Below, piece after piece: positions 34,701-36,059 of a DNA stretch of 64,000 nt; within the stretch, counting starts at the first letter, position 1, and each line of letters starts with the position of its first letter. The stretch comes from Watersipora subatra (lineage: Eukaryota > Bryozoa > Gymnolaemata > Cheilostomatida > Watersiporidae), in NCBI RefSeq assembly GCF_963576615.1, contig NC_088708.1:55539196-55603195 (forward strand), written 5' to 3'. The position numbers and the translations under genes were made by a program. Below the pieces are notes generated by a model. It searched no databases, was not told where the DNA came from, and was given only the letters and a program-made list of their open reading frames with translations.

Positions 34701-36059
34701 TTCTAAATTAGCTGTCTCCGTGACAGATAAAACTGTGTAACGATTATATATAACAAATATTTTTGGCCAAAAAGACAAGTTTGTAAATTAACTTTAAAAA
34801 CATTCTCCTATTAGCCGGTATACACATGTTTTATTTTCATGTTCTTTGCTTAAGAGTGACCCCAATGACCTAAAAATAATCTTGATGACATGCCCTAAGC
34901 TCAGAAGTTTGCTATATAGATAATCATTCAATGAAAAACAGTAAAACTTGTGATTTTATATATTTATATCTTCAGCTAAAAATGAATCCTCAATAATAAC
35001 TATTGATCTAGAGATCAGTGCTGTGACACATTTGATTGTATGTTACTGGCTTAAGCCATGTGCAACTTGTTGTATTATGCATCTAGTTGGATATCAGTAA
35101 TGGACAAGTTTAAAATATGTATATCTGTAATACTGCAGGTAGTGATATTATATTACACAATAAGGTCGCTATTAATTAGTGAAAAGTAAATATAGGAGCA
35201 ATCTAGCCTTAGTGTTTGAAGCTTTAATGTAGCCTTAGCACCTGAACTATAATTATTCTTTCATTCCTTAGATTAAGGGCAAAGTGCTAATGTTCTAAAT
35301 ATACAGATTTATTTTTTGAAGTGAGTTAAGAATTTGATTTGAAGTTTATTTCTGACCTCGCTACTCCAGCTTCATTTCTGTTAACATAATTTTAAACATA
35401 AAAAAATTGTTTTAACATTTATTGGCTAGTAAAAGTAGTTTTGTTCACCTTAAATTTTTACATTTATGGGTAAAACACAATGGATCCACAAATCATGAAT
35501 TTATTTTATGTGTAGCTACAAGTGTGAATTTTTTGTGGTAATCATGGTTACCATTTACAAAGGTCATGTCCGCTGCCAGAAGATGATGCCACATGTAACT
35601 GGGCAGATTTCCATGACGACGTTGACAATCCTAACACTCTTTATGGGGCATTAGTTGGGGGTCCAGATGCAAACGATTTGTATATAGACGAGAGAACCGA
35701 CTTTACAAAAAATGGAGTTTCATGTGATTACAACGCCGGATTTACCGGGGCACTCGCAGGTAAGAATTCTAGCTGATACAGCAAAAGGAGGTTCACAGAT
35801 ATGATTCTCCATTGATATTATTTAAACGTTTAACTTTACAGATCTGAGGACATTTAATACCAATGTGAATCAAAACAGTGCTGTGGTGTCTGGGTACATT
35901 GTTGCTTTCACTTCATTGCTGTCACCTCATTGCTGTCACCTCATTGCTGTCACCTGTTTTTTTTGGCACAGCTGCACATCTTTTTCCCTGTTCACTATCT
36001 TAGGCAACAATTCCTTGAAAAATCAACTAAGCGAGTTTATTCACACATGCAGCGTATAA
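19752..36059 (+). CDS. Gene B: CBM2-GH9 endoglucanase-like protein, 12 exons, catalytic acid Glu replaced by Gly
   Basis: Exons 19752-19817, 21361-21501, 22653-22765, 24664-24737, 24854-25012, 27648-27832, 31685-31862, 32538-32649, 33103-33274, 33641-33957, 35563-35759 and 35842-36059 join in phase to 643 codons plus TAA. Residues 1-22 are a signal peptide ([14 protein letters not shown]), so the product is likely secreted. About 23-131 are a CBM2-like module. GH9 follows: AQRSG, DAGD (Asp184, Asp187) in [51 protein letters not shown], and [16 protein letters not shown]9 enzymes cut beta-1,4-glucan by inversion, with an Asp as base and a Glu as acid. The C-terminal signature reads [20 protein letters not shown]; it fits the family pattern except that the acid Glu is Gly557 (GGA at 35,714-35,716). 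The HHR signature also has Asp and Glu where Gly and Asn are usual. Hydrolysis is therefore doubtful. The last exon is the least certain: LRTFN continues the fold, but the tail is atypical. Donor GTTGGT of exon 4 is weak but is the only one keeping frame. Confidence 0.85.
19818..21360. other. Intron 1 of gene B
   Basis: About 1.5 kb of AT-rich intron, alignable to intron 1 of A and C with many substitutions and small indels. No internal feature recognised. Confidence 0.55.
21700..22400 (+). repeat. 36-bp minisatellite in intron 2 of gene B (17 clear units)
   Basis: GTAAG positions recur every 36 bases from 21,768 to 22,344, with a degenerate unit at 22,380. The consensus is the same as in A and C. 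Here CAGGTAAGT is the commonest form. The array forms an open frame of 133 codons. Copy number differs among paralogues, but the position in the intron is the same. Confidence 0.9.
22766..24029. other. Intron 3 of gene B, 5' part
   Basis: AT-rich sequence homologous to A 5,822-7,135. Short open frames present. No recognisable gene or element. Confidence 0.5.
24038..24505. mobile_element. hAT-like MITE in intron 3 of gene B, intact 8-bp target duplication
   Basis: Ends CAGGGGTTCCCAACC and GGTTGGGAATCCTTG, flanked on both sides by CCGTAGAG (24,030-24,037 and 24,506-24,513). Orthologous to the elements at 7,144 and 50,006. It has no transposase and no coding content. Confidence 0.9.
24585..24614. 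other. Perfect 30-bp palindrome in intron 3 of gene B
   Basis: Same TGATCAGACAGTTAT arm and exact reverse complement as in A and C, again 49 bases before exon 4. It is unchanged although the surrounding introns have diverged. Confidence 0.8.
25461..26726 (-). mobile_element. 5'-truncated jockey/CR1-like LINE with 7-bp target duplication
   Basis: On the minus strand a continuous frame runs from [15 protein letters not shown] near the truncation point through [20 protein letters not shown] and LFADDTNIF (reverse transcriptase palm with the DD pair) to [15 protein letters not shown]. It ends near 25,645. The 3' tail at 25,461-25,490 is a short (ATCAA)n-type repeat. TCGGTAT flanks it at 25,454-25,460 and 26,727-26,733. 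Genes A (8,550) and C (51,420) have one TCGGTAT and no insert, fixing the exact boundaries. The open reading frame is unbroken, so the insertion is fairly young, but it lacks the RT N-terminus and the endonuclease. Confidence 0.92.
27160..27340. repeat. TATA/AAAT microsatellite in intron 5 of gene B
   Basis: TATG tract followed by (TA)n and AAATA-rich repeats. This is the position where A and C carry the R2/Dong-like LINE, so it represents the site without that insertion. Confidence 0.85.
28093..28237. repeat. 37-bp tandem repeat, four units (gene B intron 6)
   Basis: Units contain GATATGCATAGCCGATAGCC and end in GAACACAGATTT. Four units here against two in A and C. Confidence 0.8.
28790..29460. 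other. Intron 6 of gene B, segment absent from A and C
   Basis: AT-rich intron sequence with no feature recognised. It starts the block (about 28,790-37,530) that is missing from genes A and C. Confidence 0.5.
29460..30960 (-). mobile_element. Degenerate non-LTR retrotransposon in intron 6 of gene B
   Basis: Minus-strand pieces in shifting frames resemble reverse transcriptase: [18 protein letters not shown] and LFADNAN (near 30,240-30,340), [18 protein letters not shown] (near 30,450-30,520), then [19 protein letters not shown] (near 29,990-30,060) and a C-terminal [13 protein letters not shown] (near 29,480). Stops and frameshifts separate them. It is clearly older than the element at 25,461. 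Confidence 0.75.
30958..31080. repeat. (TA)n microsatellite
   Basis: Runs of TATATA with a TATTTATA interruption, followed by AT-rich sequence. Confidence 0.9.
31081..31480 (+). mobile_element. Candidate tRNA-related SINE in intron 6 of gene B
   Basis: Bases 31,331-31,395 look like the inside of a tRNA gene. TGGCTGAATTGG fits the RNA polymerase III A box, and GAGTTCAAAT approximates the B box about 45 bases later. The middle does not fold into a proper 5-bp anticodon stem with a 7-base loop. It therefore looks like a SINE head or tRNA pseudogene, not a working tRNA. The upstream GCTGTGCTACCCAGTGTTGC resembles a motif in dispersed invertebrate repeats (from memory, not checked). Confidence 0.4.
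31481..31610. repeat. TATG-type microsatellite with inverted repeats
   Basis: ATGTATATACATAC, ATACAAGATACATGTATG and similar words form overlapping inverted repeats just before exon 7. Confidence 0.75.
33958..35562. other. Intron 10 of gene B (1.6 kb)
   Basis: Donor GTAAGC, acceptor TTTACAAAG. AT-rich. No gene or recognisable repeat seen. Confidence 0.6.

Follow-up and report, generated by a model that had tools for sequence, protein, structure and literature searches.

Does an animal gene that has kept a complete cellulase domain, but not its catalytic acid, still encode an enzyme, a protein with another role, or a product without any role? The question is raised by gene B of Watersipora subatra. 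It lies in the window, i.e., the whole analyzed stretch of 64,000 nucleotides (64 kb), which self-comparison resolves into a tandem array of four units, A, B, C, and D. GH9 enzymes invert the anomeric centre: an Asp of the DAGD motif activates a water molecule, and a C-terminal Glu protonates the leaving group. A sequence-only reading had reported this Glu to be replaced by Gly in gene B, and had proposed either a cellulose- or oligosaccharide-binding pseudoenzyme or a very recent loss of function. A gene B product that lacks the proton donor should be almost incapable of normal inverting hydrolysis. In an excerpt of PMC11083476, the DAGD aspartates and the Glu of an Asn-Glu-Val motif, adjoining DYNA, are named as the catalytic residues of the family; an excerpt of PMC4221708 likewise gives two Asp and one Glu, the Glu being numbered differently.

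The GH9 domain of gene B comprises 440 amino acids and is carried by seven exons on the forward strand (+), delimited by splice sites and phase. Exon 1 (24854..25012, SNYALAIEY...GGWHD) has AG/GT sites and was aligned to the GH9 proteins of the PDB, and exon 2 (27648..27832) runs from the rest of the DAGD motif to FYAQ. They are followed by exon 3 (31685..31862), exon 4 (32538..32649), exon 5 (33103..33274), exon 6 (33641..33957) with the HHR motif, and exon 7 (35563..35759; exon 11 of the sequence-only reading). The six introns between them are all of the GT-AG type, have matching phases, and introduce no stop. Hence neither a stop, a frameshift, a broken splice site, nor the loss of an exon marks the seven exons as those of a pseudogene. 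An alignment to PF00759, which had been suggested along with the original observation, yields a match over the full profile (positions 1-444 of 444, 430.1 bits, E 1.8e-128). Searched against the PDB with phmmer, the last two exons retrieve GH9 endoglucanases, the best being 4zg8 with 182.8 bits, and the whole domain matches 4zg8 with 408 bits. Here we take 4zg8 to be the Perinereis GH9 protein, 3wc3 that of Eisenia, and 1ks8 the termite enzyme.

At its 3' end, the gene is probably shorter than originally proposed. If exon 7 is not spliced at 35759, it continues with ALAGKNSS up to a stop at 35774-35776, which is the usual place for a GH9 protein to end (4zg8, for example, is 426 residues long, and its match to gene B ends at 422). 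The twelfth exon of the sequence-only reading is thus doubtful. An AG and an open frame do exist there, but with the read-through of exon 7 ending at the normal GH9 terminus, neither this exon nor the product length of 643 residues finds support.

Upstream of the GH9 domain, two exons on the same strand, 21361..21501 (+) and 22653..~22764 (+, the donor being inferred by eye), encode an N-terminal domain, and both are conserved in units A and C. This domain is possibly carbohydrate-binding-like. The two exons have no Pfam match at E<=1, and their comparison with the PDB returns nothing convincing, only EF-hand proteins, the best of them at E 0.14; on these grounds we rejected an assignment to a known CBM. 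Judged by eye, the phase of the second N-terminal exon does not fit that of GH9 exon 1, so at least one exon is absent from our model. A start exon was looked for by eye alone, and none was found. A candidate signal peptide at 17687, MKYITVFLITLCLF, which is identical in unit D, was dropped because no GT occurs from its end up to the following stop. Between the two N-terminal exons, each of three units harbors a 36-bp minisatellite, located at 4443-5450 in A (28 copies), 21713-22404 in B (19 copies), and 47629-48312 in C (19 copies).

The codon at the catalytic-acid position is indeed GGA (35714-35716, with G at base 35715) and encodes Gly. It lies in an in-frame exon with an AG acceptor, a GT donor, and a phase that matches the preceding exon, which bears out the reported exchange. 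Our comparison set contained 80 bacterial GH9 loci, the best 80 of 528 reported relatives, all of which were used and none dropped. They had been found via the motifs DL[TS]GGW[YH]D and AGDH[VI]KFG, such that the sample leans to conserved enzymes, and none of these best 80 of 528 loci has an internal stop in the matched stretch. A search of viral contigs gave 84 pattern matches, none of which encodes a GH9 relative. The animal side of the alignment is thin, consisting of two annelid domains, and T. fusca numbering was obtained by adding T. fusca E4 (1js4), for a total of 83 other sequences.

In the column of the catalytic acid, all 82 of the other GH9 sequences (the best 80 of 528 bacterial relatives and the two annelid domains) have Glu, as do all 83 once T. 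fusca E4 is included. The Gly of gene B occupies domain position 425 (E425>G), equivalent to Glu424 of T. fusca E4. In the printed PDB alignments, Glu stands opposite to it in eight of eight distinct sequences (4zg8, 8ihx, 8ihy, 8ihw, 3wc3, 1js4, 8u49, and 2xfg), four of which, the 8ih entries and 3wc3, are near-identical to each other. Where an active GH9 cellulase requires Glu in the Asn-Glu-Val motif, gene B thus has Gly. The DAGD aspartates are retained at domain positions D52 and D55 (Asp in 83 of 83 others, including the best 80 of 528 bacterial sequences), and the HHR motif is likewise visible in the alignment, both as previously described. An alternative exon carrying Glu was considered and rejected: tblastn of exon 7 against the whole window gives only chance-level matches (E 0.13 or worse), and no second copy of any of exons 3-7 was found by tblastn in the 64 kb.

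The exchange of the catalytic acid is not isolated among the changes at conserved positions. Gene B differs at six of 62 columns that are invariant in the 83 others (including the best 80 of 528 bacterial sequences), namely by E5>L, L7>I, K9>Y, W72>H, W221>H, and E425>G. When each of these 83 sequences, again with the best 80 of 528 from bacteria, is left out in turn, it shows at most three departures (of 65), and 71 of the 83 show none. In columns conserved to at least 95% in the same set (including the best 80 of 528 bacterial sequences), gene B departs at 18 of 110, compared to 12 of 111 in Eisenia, 9 of 111 in Perinereis, and 1 of 111 in the median sequence. The two Trp residues, each present in 83 of 83 others (best 80 of 528 bacterial sequences included), are replaced by His in exon 2 (27704-27706, CAT) and exon 5 (33131-33133, CAT). 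Since TGG to CAT takes three base changes per site, these are not fresh single hits. Directly before DAGD, Tyr51 is replaced by His as well (25006-25008, CAC in exon 1); as 3 of 82 others (including the best 80 of 528 bacterial sequences) have His at this position too, this change need not be disabling.

Near HHR, three conserved flanking positions are changed in exon 6, leaving a degraded His-box signature: G362>D (33920-33922; Gly in 81 of 82 others), E364 (Asn in 74 of 82), and A369 (33941-33943; Pro in 78 of 82), where the 82 again include the best 80 of 528 bacterial sequences. The statement that every other signature position fits therefore holds for the C-terminal signature and fails for the His box, whose HHR is nevertheless kept. 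Among 22 motif and cleft positions in T. fusca numbering, 15 are kept (W53, D55, D58, H125, W128, G129, F205, Y206, W256, D262, W313, R317, H376, R378, and Y429). The other seven are changed, by Y54>H, W75>H, absence of W209, W218>H, D261>N, Y318>F, and E424>G. The absence of W209 is common to both annelids, and Asn at 261 also occurs in Eisenia. We know of no cleft role for Trp75 or Trp218, and the two replacements of Trp by His could impair folding in addition to catalysis. With Trp72, Trp221, Tyr51, Gly362, and further positions changed in addition to Glu425, the data argue against the picture of a regular, active cellulase hit very recently by a single base change.

The neighboring units provide information on the history of gene B. 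Units A and C are 96-99% identical across long blocks at offsets of ~42.8-43.2 kb, and 16729-20294 of B is 98.85% identical to 60437-64000 (+), the start of unit D, at an offset of 43.7 kb, whereas A and B share about 86-90% identity. The simplest history would be an older A/B duplication followed by a recent 43-kb duplication of the pair (A+B to C+D). Should D contain GH9 exons, these would be located past the end of the window. Tandem-copy comparison places the copies of GH9 exons 1 and 2 at 7958..8116 (+) and 11297..11481 (+) in A, and at 50823..50981 (+) and 54096..54280 (+) in C. The exon 2 copies have an in-frame TAG in common where B has TGG, and C has a second in-frame TAG in its exon 1 copy. 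According to self-comparison and tblastn, the block 28800-37546 of B, which contains GH9 exons 3-7, is missing from both units, with breakpoints at 12381..12476 (+) in A and 55180..55275 (+) in C. Lacking these exons and having the TAG in common, A and C both look like pseudogenes. Along the array, such stop-bearing units alternate with a unit that has all GH9 exons (B, perhaps also D). The codons for His51 (CAC) and His72 (CAT) are identical across A, B, and C; by parsimony, both changes consequently predate the A/B duplication.

The array also contains traces of mobile elements. A reverse transcriptase fragment (25648-26712, minus strand; RVT_1, E 1.3e-23) is located in the gene B intron between GH9 exons 1 and 2. 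Open frames of 306 residues at 9949-10866 (+) in A and 52751-53668 (+) in C match zf-RVT weakly (E about 1e-05, just under the curated cutoff) and are likely a retroelement tail between the copies of these two exons. A tRNA-like stretch at 31333-31400, recognized by eye, is possibly the head of a SINE; in the window, including this stretch, no tRNA or structured RNA was reported by ARAGORN or by Rfam at gathering thresholds.

A comparison of dN and dS with close homologues, as suggested by the sequence-only reading, could be carried out on the exons of A and C. Codons containing stops were skipped, and counts that came out fractional were rounded before binomial testing. In GH9 exon 2, B and A are separated by seven synonymous changes and one nonsynonymous change (P=9.4e-5), while exon 1 alone, with four synonymous and six nonsynonymous changes, gives no significant result (P=0.16); jointly, the two exons have 11 synonymous and seven nonsynonymous changes (P=2.7e-4). 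Exon 2, as well as exons 1 and 2 jointly, has thus been under purifying selection between B and A. Between B and C, exon 2 shows six synonymous and three nonsynonymous changes. For the N-terminal domain, the second exon has six synonymous and seven nonsynonymous changes between B and A (P=0.04), and the first is almost unconstrained (omega ~0.8, P=0.33). Across the four comparable exons, omega amounts to 0.34 for B-A and 0.37 for B-C. The altered protein, with His51 and His72 in place, was probably maintained for a time after the A/B split. As the tested exons precede the Glu site and both branches are pooled, the result gives no date for the loss of Glu, which could be recent.

In the gene B domain, 0.63 nonsense changes are expected per 1% neutral divergence. 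The dS of 0.20 between B and A, if evenly split, leaves ~0.10 on the B branch, such that about six nonsense changes would be expected under neutral drift, and none is seen. The open frame thus makes a long period of neutral drift unlikely, but is compatible with a recent loss.

Having lost a catalytic residue and kept the domain, gene B shows, at the level of its sequence, one of the features expected of a GH9 pseudoenzyme. We give an even chance to the reading that it is a catalytically dead GH9 paralogue, formerly and perhaps still maintained, with a binding or decoy role. Tentatively, a fuller history may be proposed, in which an animal GH9 lineage gave up cellulose hydrolysis and is retained by selection as a non-cutting protein that binds cellulose or oligosaccharides (a receptor, a matrix component, or a decoy), with changes in the cleft coming first, the proton donor being lost later, and the tandem sisters dying. 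The lineage would first have changed Tyr51 and Trp72 to His, ahead of the A/B duplication, and the changed protein would then have been held by purifying selection. Gene B still has both Asp residues and the larger part of the sugar-binding cleft, with Gly replacing the proton donor. Such a shift from digestion to a non-hydrolytic role would most likely consist in binding oligosaccharides that are cellulose-like or otherwise beta-1,4-linked, or else in serving as a decoy for inhibitors, while the array would meanwhile have shed the copies A and C. What we infer in this account concerns the loss of activity, the binding of sugars, the order of events, and any present-day constraint on gene B.

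The main rival, to which we assign a minor but substantial share of probability, is a nascent pseudogene: gene B would have been disabled recently in a decaying array, the loss of Glu would be among its first lesions, and the protein would have no role. The only close copies read, A and C, are both disabled, with their common TAG and without GH9 exons 3-7; array decay gains weight from them, and gene B may be following. Glu to Gly is a single base step, the start exon was not found by eye, and the open frame is hardly informative on the last 1-3% of divergence, with ~0.6 nonsense changes expected per 1%. Against this rival stand the seven GH9 exons, among which no stop, no frameshift, and no defective splice site occurs, and the fact that two other conserved positions had, by parsimony, already changed in the ancestor of A, B, and C, with exon 2 being constrained afterwards. 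Of the original alternatives, a binding pseudoenzyme or a very recent loss, both thus persist as the leading readings, and the Glu-to-Gly exchange in an intact GH9 domain holds; what has to be revised is the view of a lone change, given that gene B departs at other conserved positions too, two of which are changed in A and C as well.

We consider it improbable that the Gly reflects a sequencing or assembly error, collapsed array copies, or a rare allele, and that the usual gene has Glu. One base decides, and arrays with 96-99% identical copies are prone to mis-assembly, but gene B departs at other invariant columns and would be no standard enzyme otherwise, and tblastn finds no second copy of exon 7 in the window. 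Least of all do we expect gene B to have remained an enzyme whose chemistry or substrate has changed and which uses another acid residue such as Asp362 or Glu364 by the His box. Shortly before HHR, Asp and Glu do stand where Gly and Asn are usual, and 15 of the 22 checked motif and cleft positions are kept; however, the side chains of Asp362 and Glu364 need not point into the cleft, and no GH9 protein with such an arrangement of acids is known to us.

Gene B is closest to the animal GH9 endoglucanases with solved structures, which it resembles over the full length of the domain, with 50% identity to 4zg8 and 48% to 3wc3. With both it has DAGD, HHR, and the residues following HHR (SC...) in common, the latter being gapped in all of the best 80 of 528 bacterial sequences. 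It differs from both by Gly in place of the catalytic Glu, His in place of two invariant Trp, and the degraded His-box signature. The array itself offers a series in which the loss of function can be followed, with A and C disabled, B without the acid, and D continuing beyond the window.

In an excerpt of PMC4221708, the GH9 cellulases are regarded as a family that is probably ancestral in animals. The open PMC literature, mostly at the level of abstracts, yielded no GH9 protein with a lost catalytic Glu. One possible parallel within the family is the beetle protein AglaGH9, for which, as cited in an excerpt of PMC7500146, no endo-activity on carboxymethylcellulose was detected; like gene B it is an animal GH9 protein that is possibly not a cellulase, and the excerpt does not state a loss of catalytic residues for AglaGH9. 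Closer in kind are the leaf-beetle GH45 paralogues DVI4 and LDE9, in which the catalytic acid or base is replaced and which their authors think inactive (PMC6509783). As in gene B, a duplicated animal hydrolase of plant cell walls has had a catalytic residue replaced; in contrast to gene B, which is known as a gene model alone, these members of another family were studied as proteins. Plant-eating beetles also possess inactive GH28 proteins (cited in the same excerpt of PMC7500146), likewise retained dead paralogues of a digestive hydrolase but from another family, for which a role as decoys for inhibitors is so far a proposal. A GH9 protein without proton donor, with an intact frame and signs of past constraint, would extend the dead paralogues of digestive hydrolases known from beetle GH45 and GH28 to GH9.
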